From Prochlorococcus sp. AG-402-M15 (GTDB taxonomy: Bacteria > Cyanobacteriota > Cyanobacteriia > PCC-6307 > Cyanobiaceae): a DNA stretch of 64,000 bases. Made by a program: the position numbers and the translations under genes. This document shows, in pieces, positions 5,978 through 39,799 of the stretch. Where the stretch lies: NCBI GenBank assembly GCA_003216615.1, contig QCIP01000006.1, positions 1 to 64,000 on the forward strand, written 5' to 3'. The notes under the pieces are model-generated. The model was not told where the DNA came from. It searched no databases and saw only the letters and a list, made by a program, of their open reading frames with translations. Position 1 is the stretch's first letter, and each line of letters opens with the position of its first letter.

Positions 5978-6763
5978 TTATTTGCGAAATTTAGGAATCA
6001 AAAGTGTGGCAACGCAAATTACGCTTATTGCAGGTCCTGGAGACAAGTTAAAAAGTAGAGACAAAATAAAGCCCAGAAGTGAAATACATAATCCAAAGAG
6101 TGATGATCGTATCATTGCAATCCTAAGACTTTGAGCTTTATCTAGCCCTAACAAAGTAGGTGATGAGAGAAGTGCGATCACAAGAATAACTCCAACTGCG
6201 GACATCGAACTAACAATTACTAATGATGTAGTAAAGCTAAGGGCAAGGTTTAAAAAAGAAACATTTATACCACTTGCAGATGCACCTTCTGGATCTAATC
6301 CCACATAAACAACTTTTTCATATCCAAAAGCCATTAAAAGCATAAATACTGAAAATGCAATTATTGTTTCAAGTAAATCCTCAAAATTTGCTACAAACAA
6401 ATCTCCAAACAGCACAGTTTCTAAATCGATCCTTATTCCGAGCAGAGGAATAAGGATAACTCCAAATCCCAGCATACCCGCAAGAATAGTATTCATAACT
6501 GCTTCATAATTCTCACTTTTTCTATTAGTTAAGCTTTCAGCAACTACAGAGCCTAAAAGGCCGCTAACAACTCCTCCAATTGATGGATTTACCCCAAATG
6601 CATAAGCAAGTGCAAGGCCAGGAAGCACACAATGAGAAATTAAATTAACTTGTAATAATCGTTTATGTGTTATTAATACAGTTCCCATTGCTGGACATAA
6701 GATCCCAGAGAATATAGTTACTATTAAAGGAAGAAACCACCAATTGTTATTAATAAAAGACAT
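5978..6763 (-). CDS. znuB: Zinc ABC transporter permease
   Basis: A 261-residue membrane protein of the ABC-3 family (ZnuB/MntB type), with about eight hydrophobic helices. Seen: 'GTVLITHKRLLQVNLISHCVLPGLALAYAFG' style segments near residues 27-57, and the coupling region around 'GLDPEGASASGINV' (residues 155-168) that contacts the ATPase. Members move zinc or manganese across the inner membrane. Here the neighbours zur, znuC and znuA make zinc the likely substrate. It starts 17 bases from the zur start on the opposite strand, and znuC lies beyond zur in the same direction, so the permease has either its own promoter or is read through the antisense of zur. Confidence 0.88.
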   Translation of the reverse strand: MSFINNNWWFLPLIVTIFSGILCPAMGTVLITHKRLLQVNLISHCVLPGLALAYAFGVNPSIGGVVSGLLGSVVAESLTNRKSENYEAVMNTILAGMLGFGVILIPLLGIRIDLETVLFGDLFVANFEDLLETIIAFSVFMLLMAFGYEKVVYVGLDPEGASASGINVSFLNLALSFTTSLVIVSSMSAVGVILVIALLSSPTLLGLDKAQSLRIAMIRSSLFGLCISLLGFILSLLFNLSPGPAISVICVATLLIPKFRK

Positions 6764-6780
6764 TATTCGAATGATTCGTT

Positions 6781-7215
6781 ATGATCAAAAATGCGGGACA
6801 AAAAAAGATTTCGGAAACAATGGTAACTAAGTCTGACATTACCCAAAGACAAGAACAACTTCTTGAAGAACTTAATAAATGCGAGGATGAATTGAGCGGA
6901 CAAGAATTGCATAGACAGTTGATCAATAAAGGCAAATCTATGGGATTGACCACTGTTTATAGAAATCTGCAAATTTTGATAAAGCATGGATTAATTCGTT
7001 CTAGACATCTCCCTACTGGTGAAGTACTTTATACTCCTGTTGATAGAGATATTCATCATTTGACATGCGTTCAATGTGGAGAGACGTCGAAAATGGAAGG
7101 TTGTCCGGTTAAAGATATTCATGCCCCTAAAAAAAATCCAAAAAAGTTTCAACTTTTGTTTCATACCCTCGAATATTTCGGCCTTTGCCAAAACTGTTAT
7201 CAAGCTCAAAATTAA
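6781..7215 (+). CDS. zur: Fur-family zinc uptake regulator
   Basis: A 144-residue Fur-family repressor. It has the N-terminal winged helix ('GQELHRQLINKGKSMGLTTVYRNLQILIKHGLI', about 40-72) with the recognition helix 'LTTVYRNL', then the dimerisation domain. Two CxxC pairs (C96/C99 and C136/C139) form the structural zinc site, and 'DIHHLTC' supplies His residues for metal sensing. Location between znuB and znuC supports Zur rather than Fur. A second start at ATG 6820 (MVTKSDITQRQ) is equally good and would remove 13 residues. It should repress the znu genes when zinc is plentiful, acting at the palindrome before znuA. Confidence 0.85.
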   Translation: MIKNAGQKKISETMVTKSDITQRQEQLLEELNKCEDELSGQELHRQLINKGKSMGLTTVYRNLQILIKHGLIRSRHLPTGEVLYTPVDRDIHHLTCVQCGETSKMEGCPVKDIHAPKKNPKKFQLLFHTLEYFGLCQNCYQAQN

Positions 7216-7228
7216 GAAGGAACATTTT

Positions 7229-7999
7229 CTAATCACAGGAATTATTTTCCTTTATTGAACTGATGTTTATTTCCTCTAATTGATCTTTTATTTGATCAGG
7301 ACTACCAACTGCTAAAACACTTTTATCAAGAACTATTACTTGATCGTAGTTATTTAGAGACTTACCCCAATCATGGCTACTTACAAGTAAAGAAAGGCCC
7401 GCATCTGCAAGTTGACGAACAATTTTTAAAAAATCCTCTTTTGCAGGGGGATCCAATGCAGCACAAGGTTCATCTAAAAGAAATATTTTTGCCGGGGACA
7501 TAAGAGTTTTTGCTAATAGAGCTCTTTGTTGCTGTCCTCCTGAAAGAGAATCGAGTCTTCTATTAGCCAAATTAGCAATTCCTACTCTTTGCATTGTCGC
7601 CTCTAATTCACAACATTTATTAATCCAAGAATTAGGATATGCTAAAAGAGCCTTGATTTGAAAGGGGTTTTTGCTTCTTGATTTTGAATACTTTATTTGA
7701 CCAAGAGATACCAATTTTTCAACTGTAATGGGAAACTTCCAATTCATAGAACTTCTTTGAGGCATAAGTGCCACAAGAGATCTAGATCTATATAAATTTT
7801 CATCGTCAATTTTTATTTCACCTTTATCTGGAGTATTTTGTCCTTGCAATATCCTCAAAAGAGTGGATTTACCGGCGCCGTTTGGGCCTACTAGCGCTGT
7901 TAGAGTTCCAGGTTTAATCTCAACCGATACCTTATTTAAAACTGGCTTACTTTTTTTTGTGTATGCAAAGGTTAAATTTTCAGCGACTAAAGTAGCCAT
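7229..7999 (-). CDS. znuC: Zinc ABC transporter ATP-binding protein
   Basis: A 256-residue ABC ATPase of the manganese/zinc/iron chelate type. Seen: Walker A GPNGAGKST (38-46), a Q-loop 'MPQRSSMNWKFP', signature LSGGQQQRA (152-160), Walker B FLLDEP (173-178) and switch His in 'LLVSSHDWG'. It powers zinc import with the ZnuB permease. The gene ends 13 bases from the zur stop on the other strand and its start faces znuA across a 138-base divergent control region containing a Zur box. Confidence 0.9.
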   Translation of the reverse strand: MATLVAENLTFAYTKKSKPVLNKVSVEIKPGTLTALVGPNGAGKSTLLRILQGQNTPDKGEIKIDDENLYRSRSLVALMPQRSSMNWKFPITVEKLVSLGQIKYSKSRSKNPFQIKALLAYPNSWINKCCELEATMQRVGIANLANRRLDSLSGGQQQRALLAKTLMSPAKIFLLDEPCAALDPPAKEDFLKIVRQLADAGLSLLVSSHDWGKSLNNYDQVIVLDKSVLAVGSPDQIKDQLEEINISSIKENNSCD

Positions 8000-8137: not shown

Positions 8138-9655
8138 ATGTCAATTTTTAAAAGACTTTTAACAAATAAAACAGTTTCAAATAAGTCAATTATTAAAAAT
8201 TCCGTGATCGCGGGAACGATAATTTTTTCTGGTTTTGGGCAGGATGTCATGGCTAAAGGAAAGTCATATGTAGCAGTTGAACCACTAGTTTGTGATTTAG
8301 TTAAATCAATTGCATTACCTTCTGACGAAGTTACATGCTTAGTAGATAGAAAACAGGATGTTCATGACTTAAAGATAAATCCGAGACAAGCTCAATTACT
8401 AAATAGCGCAGACAAAGTATTCACTCTTGGTAAAGAAATGACTCCAAGTATGAGAAATTGGGAAAGTAAAAAGAATACTGTTGTTGTAGGTGTTAGTGCA
8501 ATAGAAGTAGATGATCACTCAGACCATGGTGGACATGATGATCATGCTGAACATTCAGCTAAGGTAGATGATCATTCTGATCATGGAGGTCACGATGATC
8601 ACTCAGACCATGGTGGACATGATGATCATGCTGAAGGTGATTTCGAATGGGCAGGTAAATTCCAGCTTTCTAAGGGTTCCTACAAATGGTCATTTGAAAA
8701 GGTTGATGGCGAATATGCAGATCCTGCAATGAAGATGGTGATTCTCAAATCTAATGATATAGAAGGTTCTGAAGATTTAGCTAAAGAATTATTAGGATCT
8801 AAAGACTCAATAAGCAGGAAAAATAATGGTACTTTGATCGCAAGTGATAAAGCTTTTATTCTTAACTTTGATCAAAGAAAAGAAAGCACTGTTTTTAATG
8901 TGGAAATCAAAGAAGATGGTCAATATATTTTCTTTACTGAACACATGCCTTTTGAGTTTGAAGCAACTCAACACTTTTTTAAAGACGTTTTAAATAGTGA
9001 TGTCGAACCAATAGCACAAGTACCAGACGAGGGAGAGGGGCATCATCACCATCATGACCATGGAGGACTAGATCCTCATGTTTGGCATGATCCACATAAC
9101 ATCATTAAAATGGGCAATGTAATAAGTAAAAGTTTAAAGAAAGATATTTCAATTTTTAATGGAGGGGACAGAAAACTAATTAATGAAAGATTCGAAAAAG
9201 TTGATTCTATTTTAGAAAACTTAGATAGTTGGATCGTCAAACAAGTAAGCTCTATTCCTGAGGAAAACAGAGTAATTGTATCTAAACACAAAGCTATGGA
9301 ATACTATGGAGATGCTTTTGGTTTTGAAACTATTAGTTTACTTGACTTTCTTGGTGACTCCTCAAGCTTAAGACCAGAGAACATAAGTTCTACTTTGAAC
9401 ATGCTTAATGAAGAGAATGTTCAGGCAATATTTCCAGAACAAATTCCAGCATCTAAGTTATTAAAAAACTTAAGTAGACAAAGTTCGGTTCCTTTAGCTC
9501 CTAATCAAATATTTGTTGATGGATTGATGATGGATGGTAATACGATTTCAGTAGCTGTTCACAACACTTGTACAATTGTTGATTCATTAGGTGGAAGCTG
9601 TGATAAAGAGTCTGGCTCCAATTTTGAGTCTGAATGGTACAAACTTTCAGATTAA
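8138..9655 (+). CDS. znuA: Zinc-binding protein ZnuA with His-rich loop and extra module
   Basis: A 505-residue cluster A-I substrate-binding protein; usual ZnuA length is near 310. An N-terminal signal region ends around 'DVMAKG' (residue 36-41). Expected zinc ligands are H76 ('DVHDLK'), H314 ('LDPHVWHDPHN') and H384 ('VSKHKAMEYY'), plus an acidic residue near D461. Residues 125-166 are a His/Asp-rich repeat (units like DDHSDHGGHDDHAE), and residues 302-308 a second His run. Between them, residues 168-292, lies an inserted module starting 'FEWAGKFQLSKGSYKW' that resembles part of the next gene. The protein captures zinc in the periplasm for ZnuBC. It is controlled by the Zur box just upstream and is followed after 77 bases by the COG0523 GTPase. 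Confidence 0.88.
   Translation: MSIFKRLLTNKTVSNKSIIKNSVIAGTIIFSGFGQDVMAKGKSYVAVEPLVCDLVKSIALPSDEVTCLVDRKQDVHDLKINPRQAQLLNSADKVFTLGKEMTPSMRNWESKKNTVVVGVSAIEVDDHSDHGGHDDHAEHSAKVDDHSDHGGHDDHSDHGGHDDHAEGDFEWAGKFQLSKGSYKWSFEKVDGEYADPAMKMVILKSNDIEGSEDLAKELLGSKDSISRKNNGTLIASDKAFILNFDQRKESTVFNVEIKEDGQYIFFTEHMPFEFEATQHFFKDVLNSDVEPIAQVPDEGEGHHHHHDHGGLDPHVWHDPHNIIKMGNVISKSLKKDISIFNGGDRKLINERFEKVDSILENLDSWIVKQVSSIPEENRVIVSKHKAMEYYGDAFGFETISLLDFLGDSSSLRPENISSTLNMLNEENVQAIFPEQIPASKLLKNLSRQSSVPLAPNQIFVDGLMMDGNTISVAVHNTCTIVDSLGGSCDKESGSNFESEWYKLSD
8510..8635 (+). repeat. 42-base direct repeats encoding His-rich units
   Basis: Two identical 42-base copies, 8510-8551 and 8594-8635, encode the DDHSDHGGHDDHAE unit of ZnuA. 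A partial, diverged copy lies between them (8567-8593). The exact identity of the outer copies points to recent duplication or ongoing copy-number change. Confidence 0.8.
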
Positions 9656-9732: not shown

Positions 9733-11088
9733 ATGAGTATAAAAGATAAAGTTCCCGTAACTATCCTTACTGGATTCCTTGGCTCAGGGAAAACAACTCT
9801 GCTTAATAGAATATTAAGTGAGGAGCACGGGAAACGAATAGCTGTAATTGAGAATGAATACGGTGAGGTAGGTATAGATCAAGGACTCGTAATTAATGCC
9901 GACGAAGAAGTATTTGAGATGTCAAATGGGTGCATTTGTTGTACTGTTCGCGGGGATTTAATAAGAGTACTTGGCAACCTTATGAAAAGAAGAGATAAGT
10001 TTGACTATGTTTTAGTAGAAACGACAGGATTAGCAGATCCAGGCCCAGTTGCTCAGACTTTTTTCATGGATGAAGAAATTAGTTCCGAATTTACTCTCGA
10101 TGGAATTGTGACTTTAGTTGATGCTGCACATATTGATCAGCAATTAGGAAGAAGTGATGAAAGTTCAGAACAAGTTGCATTTGCAGATGTTCTTGTCCTA
10201 AATAAAACTGATTTAGTCTCTGATGATGCTCTAGATACTCTTGAATCGAGATTGAGAGATATGAACCGAATGACTCGAATCATTCGAGCCGAGAAAGCCC
10301 AAGTACCCATCGAAACAGTCCTAAATCTAAGTGCATTTGATCTCGATCAGATCCTTATACGCAGACCAACATTTCTTGAACCAGAATATCCTTTTGAATG
10401 GACAGGTGTTTACGATCTTGCTGCAGGAAAATATGAATTAATTTTAGAAGAAGGACCCGATCCTGAAATGTCGTTAGTTGCTTTTACAGATCAAGGATCA
10501 ACCGAGGAAGAACTTAAAGATGGTGCTGAATCCTCCGTAAGACTTTATGCAGAAAAAGCTAAAAGCTTAGAACCTGGGAATATCATTCCATTTGGAGAAC
10601 ATATAAATCTTAAATTGGAGGATAAAGGAAATAAATCATTCATATTAGATATCAATAAGGGATCAAAGATAGGTTTATATACACAGCACACTGCTGAAGA
10701 ATTCAATATGAAAATCATAAATATCGGTAAAAATAATCCAAAAGAGATTCCATTTAATATTGAAAGATTCTGGCAAGCTGAGCACGAACACGATGATGAA
10801 GTAACGTCAATTGCAATTGAACGATTTGGAGATGTTGATCCAGAAAAACTTAATACTTGGTTGGGCAGACTTCTTTCGGAAAAAGGTGTGGATATATTTA
10901 GAACAAAAGGGTTCATTAGCTACTCAGGAAACCCACAGAGAATAGTTTTCCAAGGGGTGCATATGCTATTTACAGCGCAACCTGATAAAGAATGGGGTAA
11001 CGAACCTCGTAGAAACCAACTTGTTTTTATAGGTAGGAATTTAGACGAGAAAGAGATGCGAGAAGGTTTTGAAAAATGCCTGATATAG
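9733..11088 (+). CDS. COG0523 (CobW/ZagA-type) GTPase, zinc metallochaperone
   Basis: A 451-residue G3E-family GTPase. Seen: Walker A GFLGSGKTT (14-22), the metal-binding C-x-C-C motif C67-I-C-C70 in 'MSNGCICCTVRGDL', the Walker B/G3 region 'YVLVETTGLADPGPV' (92-106), NKTDL (157-161) and the C-terminal CobW domain ('FISYSGNPQRIVFQGV'). Between the G domain and the C-terminal domain, about residues 221-335, sits an extra module beginning 'FEWTGVYDLAAGKYEL' that resembles the insert of ZnuA upstream. An acidic-His stretch 'AEHEHDDE' follows. Known members hand zinc to target enzymes under zinc shortage. Synteny with znuA and zur supports that role over cobalamin synthesis. Confidence 0.85.
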   Translation: MSIKDKVPVTILTGFLGSGKTTLLNRILSEEHGKRIAVIENEYGEVGIDQGLVINADEEVFEMSNGCICCTVRGDLIRVLGNLMKRRDKFDYVLVETTGLADPGPVAQTFFMDEEISSEFTLDGIVTLVDAAHIDQQLGRSDESSEQVAFADVLVLNKTDLVSDDALDTLESRLRDMNRMTRIIRAEKAQVPIETVLNLSAFDLDQILIRRPTFLEPEYPFEWTGVYDLAAGKYELILEEGPDPEMSLVAFTDQGSTEEELKDGAESSVRLYAEKAKSLEPGNIIPFGEHINLKLEDKGNKSFILDINKGSKIGLYTQHTAEEFNMKIINIGKNNPKEIPFNIERFWQAEHEHDDEVTSIAIERFGDVDPEKLNTWLGRLLSEKGVDIFRTKGFISYSGNPQRIVFQGVHMLFTAQPDKEWGNEPRRNQLVFIGRNLDEKEMREGFEKCLI

Positions 11089-12134
11089 AATCATTTAGCC
11101 CAAGAGGTATGTTCCACGAGGGATGGACAGCTGAAGTTAATGATTATGCAATAGTTTGTGGTTGGGCTATTAAAGGAAAGTTATTCATTGTTGGGGATGT
11201 AGCAGGAGGTATTTTTGCCTTTGAAGGAGATACTGGGAAAATTATTTGGAAAAAAGAAAATACACACTCTAGTGGTCTTCTAGCAATGTCCATTCATCCA
11301 GAAGGAGAGATTTTTGCAACTTCCGGTCAAGATGGGGATATTCAAATATATAATTGCCACGAAGGTAAAGTAATTAAAACTCTCGATCTTGGCAAGGGTT
11401 GGGTAGAGCATCTTAAGTGGTCAAATGATGGCTTATTTCTTGCAGTAGCTTCTTCAAAAAAAGTATATGTTTTTAACGAAATTGGTGAAGAAAAATGGGT
11501 CTCAGATGATCATCCAAGCACAGTGAGTGCAATAAAATGGTCAAATAATAATGAGCTAGCTACAGCCTGCTACGGGAGAGTAACATTCTTTGACATATTA
11601 AATAATAAAACGAATCAAAAACTCGAGTGGCAAGGATCATTAGTCTCAATGGAATTAAGTCCTGATGGTGATATAGTCGCCTGCGGGAGTCAAGACAATT
11701 CAGTTCATTTTTGGAGAAGATCAACCGGAATGGATGCTGAAATGACAGGATACCCAGGAAAACCTAGTCATCTTTCCTTTGATGATAGTGGAAAATTATT
11801 AGCAACTAGTGGTAGCGAGAGAATCACAGTATGGAGCTTTATAGGTGACGGTCCTGAGGGAACTATGCCGGGAGAGCTATGGCACCATACCGAACCTATT
11901 TCTAGCCTAGCCTTTTCAAATAAAGGCATGCTTGTAGCTTCCGGATCTAGAGATGGTTCTGTTGTCGCAAGTTTTCTAAAAAAAGACGGTAATGGTGACC
12001 CAGTTGGGGCTGCATTCGCAGGCGATTTAGTGGGTGCACTTTCGTGGAGACCTGATGATTGTGCACTAGCTGCAGTTAACGCCAAAGGTGTGGTAAATGT
12101 ATGGAAATTTAAAGTTCGTACTAATTCTTTTTGA
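11076..12134 (+). CDS. WD40 repeat protein linked to the zinc GTPase
   Basis: A 352-residue protein made of WD40-type repeats, probably seven blades. Recurrent blade endings are visible: 'IFAFEGDTGKIIWK', 'DIQIYNCHEGKVIKTL', 'SVHFWRRSTG', 'RITVWSF' and the closing 'GVVNVWKFKVR', each preceded by G-x-D/S-G-x or S-x-D-x turns. It is a predicted interaction platform, cytoplasmic, without signal peptide. Its start overlaps the end of the GTPase gene by 13 bases in another frame, so translation is probably coupled and the products may form a complex. WD40 proteins next to COG0523 genes suggest a target-recognition or scaffold role in metal delivery; this is inference. Confidence 0.8.
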   Translation: MPDIESFSPRGMFHEGWTAEVNDYAIVCGWAIKGKLFIVGDVAGGIFAFEGDTGKIIWKKENTHSSGLLAMSIHPEGEIFATSGQDGDIQIYNCHEGKVIKTLDLGKGWVEHLKWSNDGLFLAVASSKKVYVFNEIGEEKWVSDDHPSTVSAIKWSNNNELATACYGRVTFFDILNNKTNQKLEWQGSLVSMELSPDGDIVACGSQDNSVHFWRRSTGMDAEMTGYPGKPSHLSFDDSGKLLATSGSERITVWSFIGDGPEGTMPGELWHHTEPISSLAFSNKGMLVASGSRDGSVVASFLKKDGNGDPVGAAFAGDLVGALSWRPDDCALAAVNAKGVVNVWKFKVRTNSF

Positions 12135-38215: not shown

Positions 38216-39799
38216 TTATTTTCGCCAATCATCAATATTAATATCTGGGAAAACTCTATCTTCTTCCTCAATATCTGCAAGAAATTTCAAATTAATATTG
38301 GAATGGTTTTTAATCATCCCAACTAATTTCCAGAACCTTAACAAGTGTCTTTCTATCCTCTCTTTTGCAAGCTCAGTTGTAGTTCCTGCTCTTAGGATAA
38401 AACTCCAATCAGAGGATTCAGAAAGAAGTAATTCTCTTGCTGCTTGTTTGAAAAGTCTTGGAGATAAATCATTATTAAAATTTTTCGAGCATAAATCAAC
38501 AAAAGTTGAACCTGCTTTTGTGATTTCTGGAACTATCCATGCATTTGCATCATTAATCCAGTAATTATGGTAACCCCCTTGCCCCCAGCTTGACGGCGAT
38601 GGGTCACAAATCTGAAGATTTGGCTTCTGTAGTAAGAATTCTTTTAAATTTATAAGCTTAATTGAATATTTACTGGAGTTTTTTAAAATATTCTCAATAA
38701 AAAAAGGTCCCTCATACCACCAATGACCAAATAACTCCGCATCAAATGGAGCTACCAATAGAGGCTTAAAGGAAGATGATAAAGTTAAATTTTCTAATTG
38801 TTTAGATCTCGCTAAAAGATAAGCATCAGCATGTTCTACAGCTTTCTTTTTGGCTTCATTTTCTAAGTAAAACTCTTTTTCCCCTAATGGTACGTTTTCA
38901 TCTGTAATCTTATGAAACTTTAAACCCAAAGGTCTTTTAGTTAAAATGCCTTTCTTTTGGAGCTGAGAGATGGGTAATTCCCACCCCAAATCTTTATGAA
39001 ATTCTCTATAAACTTTGTCGCCAGGGAACCCATCCTTGGAAGACCAAACTGGTAAGGTTGACTCACTATCTCTTCCGAAGAATGCGACTCCTTTTTTCGA
39101 GCAGATTGGGGCGTAAACACCATACCTAGGCCTCGGTGTAGAATTTAGAATCCCATGACCGTCTAAGATTGCATATCTAATTCCAGAATTAAATAGTAAT
39201 TCATCTAAATTTTCATAATATGCACATTCAGGTAACCAAATACCTAAAGGCTTTTTCCCAAAAATATTTTCATGGCTCTTAATTGCTGTATTAATTTGTC
39301 CTTTAACTGTTTCAGGATTCTCTCTTAGAATTGGCAAATATCCGTGTGTAGCAGCACAAGTAAGAATATCCAAATTTCCAGAGTTATTTAAAACTCTAAA
39401 CTTCTCAATTAAATTTCCAGAACATTTTTGCCAGTATAAAAATTTGTCGTTCAAATTTTTAATTAAAAATGCAGAAGCATTTTTTTCTTCTTGTGGTAAT
39501 TCGTTTAAAAAAGAATTCCTCATTTTAATCCAAATTGGGAAGGTTTCTTGAATTTTTTTATTATCTAAAAGCGATAATAATGTTGGAGACAAACTAATAG
39601 TTAGTTTTGTGTTTAAGGGATTTTCATTTTTGGATGATTCTATTGATTGAAGGAGTGGTATATAACATTCCAATATCGCCTGAAATAACCAATCCTCTTC
39701 TAATGAGTTTTTTTCATTTTTCCTGACATAAGGAAGATGAGCATGTAAAACTATCGCTAACTGGCCTAAAAAACTTTTTTTGGGGTATTGCCCATTCAT
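38216..39799 (-). CDS. GH57 family 1,4-alpha-glucan branching enzyme
   Basis: A 527-residue glycoside hydrolase 57 enzyme with the DUF1957 C-terminal helical domain. Seen: HAHLPYVR (19-26), nucleophile E191 in 'GIWLPECAYYENL', acid/base D353 in 'VAPFDAELFGHWWYEGP', and 'LRAGTTTELAKERIERHL' in the helical domain. Such enzymes make alpha-1,6 branches in glycogen; the assignment over alpha-amylase rests on the 'LPECAYY' and DUF1957 features. It converges with crtL. Confidence 0.88.
   Translation of the reverse strand: MNGQYPKKSFLGQLAIVLHAHLPYVRKNEKNSLEEDWLFQAILECYIPLLQSIESSKNENPLNTKLTISLSPTLLSLLDNKKIQETFPIWIKMRNSFLNELPQEEKNASAFLIKNLNDKFLYWQKCSGNLIEKFRVLNNSGNLDILTCAATHGYLPILRENPETVKGQINTAIKSHENIFGKKPLGIWLPECAYYENLDELLFNSGIRYAILDGHGILNSTPRPRYGVYAPICSKKGVAFFGRDSESTLPVWSSKDGFPGDKVYREFHKDLGWELPISQLQKKGILTKRPLGLKFHKITDENVPLGEKEFYLENEAKKKAVEHADAYLLARSKQLENLTLSSSFKPLLVAPFDAELFGHWWYEGPFFIENILKNSSKYSIKLINLKEFLLQKPNLQICDPSPSSWGQGGYHNYWINDANAWIVPEITKAGSTFVDLCSKNFNNDLSPRLFKQAARELLLSESSDWSFILRAGTTTELAKERIERHLLRFWKLVGMIKNHSNINLKFLADIEEEDRVFPDINIDDWRK

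Follow-up and report, generated by a model that had tools for sequence, protein, structure and literature searches.

The periplasmic zinc-binding protein ZnuA and the COG0523 GTPase encoded next to it in Prochlorococcus sp. AG-402-M15 share a homologous domain of about 110 residues, here called the module. On balance, the module is probably a portable transition-metal-binding domain, with zinc as its metal in these two proteins and cobalt or nickel in some others.

A domain common to ZnuA and the adjacent GTPase

Within the window (the whole stretch of 64,000 nucleotides that was analysed), znuA occupies positions 8138-9655 of the forward strand and encodes a periplasmic zinc-binding protein of 505 aa with one module; the protein matches the Pfam ZnuA profile (PF01297, E 5.5e-43, in two stretches) with 147.8 bits against a cut-off of 29. 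The GTPase, of the COG0523 (cobW) type and also on the forward strand (9733-11088, 451 aa), carries one module together with a cobW domain (PF02492, E 2.2e-61, residues 8-184), a CobW_C domain (PF07683, E 3.4e-25, residues 358-450) and the NGCICC motif. Its stop codon is overlapped by a gene encoding a WD40 repeat protein (11076-12134, forward strand, Pfam WD40). On the other side of znuA are ORFs that, judged from their sequences, we take to encode a zinc ABC transporter ATP-binding protein (znuC, 7229-7999, reverse strand), a Fur-family regulator, probably Zur (6781-7215, forward strand), and a zinc ABC transporter permease (znuB, 5978-6763, reverse strand); all three have orthologues in loci L201 and L202. 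The module copies map to 8639-8968 in znuA (about residues 168-277) and to 10387-10713 in the GTPase gene (about residues 219-327, between the G domain and CobW_C), both on the forward strand, with E-values of 5.8e-28 and 3.0e-35 to profile A6. A profile search found only these two modules in the genome at E ≤ 0.001.

The initial annotation had claimed that a common domain is present in a periplasmic zinc binder and a cytoplasmic zinc GTPase. The motifs on which this claim was built were located as described, FEWAGKFQLSKGSYKW in ZnuA and FEWTGVYDLAAGKYEL in the GTPase, and the identity of both genes was confirmed. Direct BLASTP comparison of the two window proteins gave E 4e-4 over 36 residues. 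Used as a single query, the ZnuA segment matched the GTPase of 18 congeneric genomes (E 1.6e-4 to 0.01, mostly over residues 3-109) and that of one genome from another cyanobacterial family (1.3e-5), and the GTPase segment matched ZnuA in 4 genomes of the family (7e-5 to 2e-3); within the window's own genome, neither query reached its partner at E ≤ 0.01. The shortness of the single-sequence match and the partner missed in the window's genome would fit a resemblance due to chance or convergence, and comparison of profiles with controls argues against it. A profile made of GTPase modules only (43 modules) matched all 26 ZnuA modules, which are not independent because all are picocyanobacterial, at 56-68 bits; 1,040 shuffled ZnuA modules scored at most 7.8 bits and reversed ones at most 3.3 bits. 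In the other direction, the ZnuA profile matched 42 of the 43 GTPase modules at E<1e-3, and 1,720 shuffles reached at most 6.1 bits. The window's own pair scored 56.5 and 24.5 bits in this cross-profile test, and HMM-HMM alignment of the ZnuA and GTPase segment profiles gave a probability of 98.4 (E 5.1e-15) over 103 columns. A chance origin of the likeness was excluded by the shuffle and reversal controls, and we regard the probability of chance or convergence as negligible.

Structure prediction led to the same conclusion. Two AlphaFold2 runs used separate alignments, one of 26 ZnuA modules and the other of 44 further rows (43 GTPase modules plus a cation-efflux module). Their best models had a mean pLDDT of 84.1 and 88.3, respectively; the remaining four models of the ZnuA run had a lower confidence (64-76). 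The two best models display a near-identical predicted order of three strands, a helix and then five strands in ZnuA or four in the GTPase, with tails that differ. Neither unrelated folds nor an alignment score at random level, the outcomes set beforehand as refuting a common domain, turned up. The two groups of copies match each other's profile along almost their whole length and have the same predicted order of strands and helix, which defines a single module family.

The models predict a beta-sandwich with one helix, loosely GOLD- or jelly-roll-like, of which only the general type is fixed. The name of the fold is kept loose because Foldseek returned nothing at E ≤ 0.001 with either model and its best rows (all E >0.001) differed between them, being TNF-like for the GTPase module and haemagglutinin-like for the ZnuA module. 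A second structural comparison placed SEC14-like GOLD domains on top for both models with weak scores; one model gave Z 6.1 (rmsd 3.1, 84 aligned) and the other Z 4.6 (rmsd 3.2, 83 aligned), tied with unrelated folds, and by the tool's own note a sandwich commonly reaches a Z of 3 to 6. SEC14-like and p24 GOLD domains, which have a trafficking role in eukaryotes, make up these top structural rows for both models and have no sequence link to the module. Profile A6 matched no chain at E ≤ 10 in a search for a solved structure containing the module.

Searched alone, the window copies had no Pfam or NCBIfam family at E ≤ 1, and 34 diverse copies gave scattered weak matches of 1 or 2 members each. 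NF005913 was rejected as the family of the module, its best match (about 2e-4) reaching 20 bits against a cut-off of 382. As searched, no Pfam or NCBIfam model fits the module. The accompanying claim that neither host family normally has this part is borne out by E. coli YjiA and by the Pfam models of ZnuA and cobW; one widespread WD40-linked COG0523 group, however, normally has the module.

Two known metal domains can be set beside the module. The HMA domain, which occurs in metal chaperones, P-type ATPases and MerA, is likewise a small portable domain common to soluble metal carriers and membrane transporters; the module differs from it in its predicted fold, in having no conserved Cys, where HMA has a CxxC metal motif, and in having no Pfam HMA match among the 34 copies. 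The ZinT domain is an extra metal domain on the ZnuA-type zinc-binding protein AdcA, fused at its end, whereas the module is inserted within the His-rich loop and gave no ZinT match at E ≤ 1 among the 34 copies. In the literature, judged by titles and abstract openings together with passages of PMC9337993, PMC8786288, PMC2770081, PMC10957091 and PMC8469502, no paper describing the module domain was found. The zinc exoprotein ZepA, as described in passages of PMC10957091, also has a beta-sandwich domain, and its gene lies near ZnuA and COG0523 genes in some genomes; in this comparison, made by description only, ZepA stands apart by its PEP-CTERM and its absence from Archaea.

Host proteins, distribution and origin

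Scanning GTDB genomes by residue patterns returned at least 552 matching stretches encoding a relative, a count of stretches in which one gene may appear twice. Among the matches listed, 80 loci were retained, 45 from Prochlorococcus or Synechococcus and 35 from other lineages, which include Acidobacteria, Planctomycetes, Chloroflexi, Gemmatimonadetes, Rubrobacter, Gammaproteobacteria and Paenibacillus. Profile searches of genome samples, each counted with its centre genome, found the module in 7/299 genomes for the phylum of Paenibacillus, 2/299 for that of Methylocaldum, 10/151 for that of an Anaerolineae MAG, 9/149 for that of a Bryobacterales MAG, 5/198 for that of Rubrobacter and 3/149 for that of a planctomycete MAG; a single-sequence search found it in 13 of 145 genomes of Cyanobacteriia. 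The module is thus widespread, its GTPase hosts belonging to many phyla, but patchy. On plasmids, tblastn located it in haloarchaeal zinc-binding proteins, in GTPases of Pantoea and Paraburkholderia and in small proteins of unknown function. None of the 64 pattern matches in viral contigs was a relative, and tblastn of one GTPase module on phage records found none.

A census of 248 module ORFs (231 distinct) assigned 155 to the COG0523 GTPases, 80 to ZnuA (9 of them with two copies) and 2 to cation-efflux proteins (one gene fetched twice). Judged by reading, the 11 ORFs without a reference match comprise seven small proteins, two ZnuA, a broken GTPase and a membrane protein. Pfam recognised Cation_efflux and ZT_dimer in the Paenibacillus host protein, and confirmed ZnuA in one host from the Paenibacillus phylum and in one haloarchaeal host. 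The host at L050 (Alicyclobacillus), by eye a nickel/cobalt exporter, is called only a membrane protein because neither of its two outer pieces had a significant match in Pfam; its neighbours are annotated as cation transporters and a metal-sensitive regulator. L046 (G108 contig 27, about 38318-38503) was set aside as a module gene, being a fragment with a stop. This fragment is in another frame near a partial heavy-metal ATPase-like ORF (by reading) and is perhaps due to misassembly in a draft genome.

The small module proteins have lipoprotein- or Tat-like starts, and most contain His-rich stretches (by eye). Four of the seven are encoded near cobalt-transport, cobalamin-type or urease genes. 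At L205, the small protein lies between ribonucleotide reductase (PF02867) and periplasmic-binding-protein (PF01497) genes with CbiQ and CbiM upstream; L206 has the same arrangement by eye, CbiM not being on its contig; at L204, CbiM is about 2 kb away; and at L057 the module gene directly follows urease genes. Matches to CbiM (PF01891) in two of the small-protein clusters had E-values of 7.4e-52 and 2.5e-51, at a distance of about 2 to 3 kb, and one of these clusters also has CbiQ. No metal genes were in view on the loci of the other three (L053, L058 and L154/L207); L154 is the weakest module match, has lost W5 and D25, and lies beside an EPSP-synthase-like ORF (by reading). Judged by the identity of the hosts and by their neighbours, metal is therefore what unites the larger hosts and four of the seven small ones. 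The mobility proposed in the initial annotation is supported by the range of hosts, which are proteins of five kinds from bacteria and archaea, and by the 0, 1 or 2 copies found in syntenic znuA genes.

Some of these loci displayed further features. The ribonucleotide reductase gene of L205 (PF02867, 3605-5893) is located inside the cobalt-type uptake cluster that holds the small module protein. The Haloarcula halophila plasmid (L059, 358293-363408) has a second metal-cluster copy, in which the znuA frame goes astray within the module, near the end of the record. In the haloarchaeal loci L054, L055 and L051, a 73-aa protein of unknown function is encoded between the module-bearing znuA and the ABC genes, and the upstream GTP-binding protein, which lies whole in the locus at L054 and L055, has no module.

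A tree of 72 modules was poorly resolved, with few columns and many open forks. Picocyanobacterial ZnuA copies grouped with ZnuA copies from the Paenibacillus phylum (84/96, below the tool's starred level), away from the picocyanobacterial GTPase copies, and haloarchaeal ZnuA copies grouped with haloarchaeal small proteins (99/72). Descent of one window copy from the other by local duplication is not favoured by this tree. Since the best tree needs two changes for ZnuA, two separate captures of the module by ZnuA are the likelier reading; the well-supported branches alone are compatible with one.

The module in ZnuA and in the GTPase

In ZnuA, the module is inside the His-rich loop, between the two lobes. 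The sequence directly 5' of it is a His/Asp-rich tract that makes up the first arm of this loop (8513-8638, forward strand), and 3' of it an HHHHHDH tract (9041-9061, forward strand) stands immediately ahead of the DPHVWHD segment; a ZrgA match covers residues 86-167 and stops where the module starts. Genomes G024 (L201) and G027 (L202) have the same znuB-zur-znuC/znuA-GTPase-WD40 locus as the window, with a module-free ZnuA frame of 371 residues in which the His-rich loop is unbroken. Together with L022, these proteins form a natural series with 0 modules (G024, G027), 1 (window) and 2 (L022). Across 37 genomes of the genus, the window's among them, the module was found in both genes in 23 (one of which, G008, has a GTPase copy cut by a contig end), in the GTPase only in 5 and in neither gene in 9, of which 8 are under 90% complete. 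Two of the five GTPase-only genomes were checked and both hold an intact module-free ZnuA, indicating that the module is dispensable for this protein.

The number of His residues preceding the first module was counted in 45 distinct ZnuA with both loop borders found by pattern, out of 75 distinct ZnuA ORFs plus L150. All seven tandem two-module proteins (L022, L023, L048, L100, L109, L126 and L133) had none, and the 38 one-module proteins had a median of 12 (range 1-17), including two from the Paenibacillus phylum with 1 His each. This pattern looks like a trade of a loose His tract for a folded module, which may be a single event in one clade.

In the GTPase, the module takes the place of the short link joining the G domain and CobW_C in E. 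coli YjiA (1nij). YjiA is the best solved relative of the GTPase (E 3.6e-62) and differs from it by having no module: the alignment covers GTPase residues 7-213 and 354-446 and skips 214-353. An EHEHDDE motif in the sequence after the module (10780-10800, forward strand) lies at the start of CobW_C. Among the 150 module GTPase ORFs with a full start, all contain GC[IL]CC and 124 contain the HxHD motif.

A WD40 homologue is encoded next after the module gene in 33 of the 35 non-picocyanobacterial loci among the matches listed, a count from which the 45 Prochlorococcus/Synechococcus loci of the 80 were dropped and in which L064 and L065 are contigs of one MAG. The exceptions are L120, a GTPase locus, and L123, whose host is a cation-efflux protein. 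The WD40 family, defined by a profile match at E ≤ 1e-80 (weaker WD40 proteins exist in other genomes), and the module were found in exactly the same genomes, 13 of the 145 Cyanobacteriia and 9 of the 149 in the acidobacterial sample. This co-occurrence holds when the two genes are apart, on different contigs (draft G119) or separated by about 96 kb (G1029). By co-occurrence, the WD40 protein is a constant partner of the module-bearing GTPases. In passages of Haas et al. 2009 (PMC2770081), COG0523 subfamily 5 genes are described as clustering with WD40 and znuABC genes; the window GTPase, a zinc-linked protein encoded beside the same genes, resembles this subfamily, and its placement there rests on gene neighbourhood, not on the tree of Haas et al. 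An inserted domain goes unmentioned in these passages of PMC2770081.

Conserved residues and putative role in metal transfer

Four positions stand out in the module alignment. Among 221 distinct modules, with gaps set aside, E4 was found in 215/215, D25 in 212/214, H102 in 200/200 and E106 in 199/199, figures to which the residue patterns used for fetching some of the loci contribute in part. The count was repeated on the pattern-free subset because the patterns used to fetch part of the loci held some of the conserved letters; in these 43 distinct modules, E4 was found in 42/42, D25 in 41/43, H102 in 43/43 and E106 in 42/42. In the models, E4 starts strand 1, D25 is located between strands 2 and 3, and H102 and E106 come after the last main strand. 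Judging from this strand order, the four residues may meet at one end of the predicted sandwich. The conserved carboxylates and His could also be structural.

We infer metal binding, a role in metal transfer and the clustering of the four residues from the host proteins and genes that accompany the module and from its conserved E/D/H/E. At one end of the sandwich, E4, D25, H102 and E106 would hold the metal, in a module spliced into each host where the hand-over of metal takes place. In ZnuA, the module would be a folded and removable part of the His-rich loop near the zinc cleft, where it would add a site to collect or buffer zinc and pass it on to the cleft. For the GTPase, where the module is located between the GTP domain and CobW_C and shortly ahead of the HxHD motif, its task, shared with the WD40 partner, would be to hold zinc or bring it into position while GTP drives the transfer. 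The three small proteins with no metal gene in view slightly reduce our confidence in metal binding, and the ZnuA proteins that do without the module also count against this account.

The main rival explanation is that the module is a docking domain, which would bind a protein partner and not metal, the conserved residues providing a binding surface or supporting the fold. The partner would be the WD40 propeller or a client in the case of the GTPase, and the permease or another periplasmic protein in the case of ZnuA. Docking has its greatest appeal for the GTPase-WD40 pair. Module-bearing GTPases and the WD40 gene are in identical genomes (13/145 and 9/149) even when the genes are apart, and both GOLD-like sandwiches and WD40 propellers commonly serve to bind proteins. 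It would also fit the three of seven small module proteins without a metal gene in view. However, a cytoplasmic WD40 partner is not to be expected for ZnuA, the cation-efflux protein and the lipoprotein-like hosts, all of which work outside or across the membrane, and what is common to most of the named hosts is metal, not a partner. An invariant His and two invariant Glu across five kinds of host also exceed the needs of a common interface. We consider docking rather unlikely.

The invariance of E4, H102 and E106 across phyla is equally unexpected of a passive folded spacer keeping flexible His tracts apart or protected. Such a spacer would be consistent with the position of the module next to His-rich stretches in ZnuA and in most small proteins, as well as with the two-module ZnuA proteins that have no first His tract; overall it seems improbable to us. 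We give very little credence to a carbohydrate- or lipid-binding sandwich recruited to metal proteins. The weak structural neighbours of the models do include SEC14-like GOLD domains and CBM35, but Z values of 3 to 6 are commonplace among sandwiches, and a cytoplasmic GTPase has no evident use for sugar binding.

We would give slightly less than an even chance to a wider reading. The module would represent a new cross-domain metal-binding family with its own E/D/H/E site, a counterpart of HMA for zinc, cobalt and nickel that is plugged into importers, exporters, lipoproteins and GTP-driven chaperones, and the GTPase with its obligate WD40 propeller would be a two-protein zinc-delivery machine in many phyla.

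Portable metal domains reveal which steps of metal traffic are built alike. Prochlorococcus is a very abundant phototroph of the sea, and in it the module connects the zinc catcher outside with the zinc GTPase inside; further copies occur in zinc, cobalt and nickel proteins of both archaea and bacteria. The module offers a single site that can be mutated and an approach to how COG0523 GTPases take up their metal. The module also gives a family to proteins now called hypothetical, and the WD40 protein is a candidate partner for a poorly understood class of zinc GTPases.
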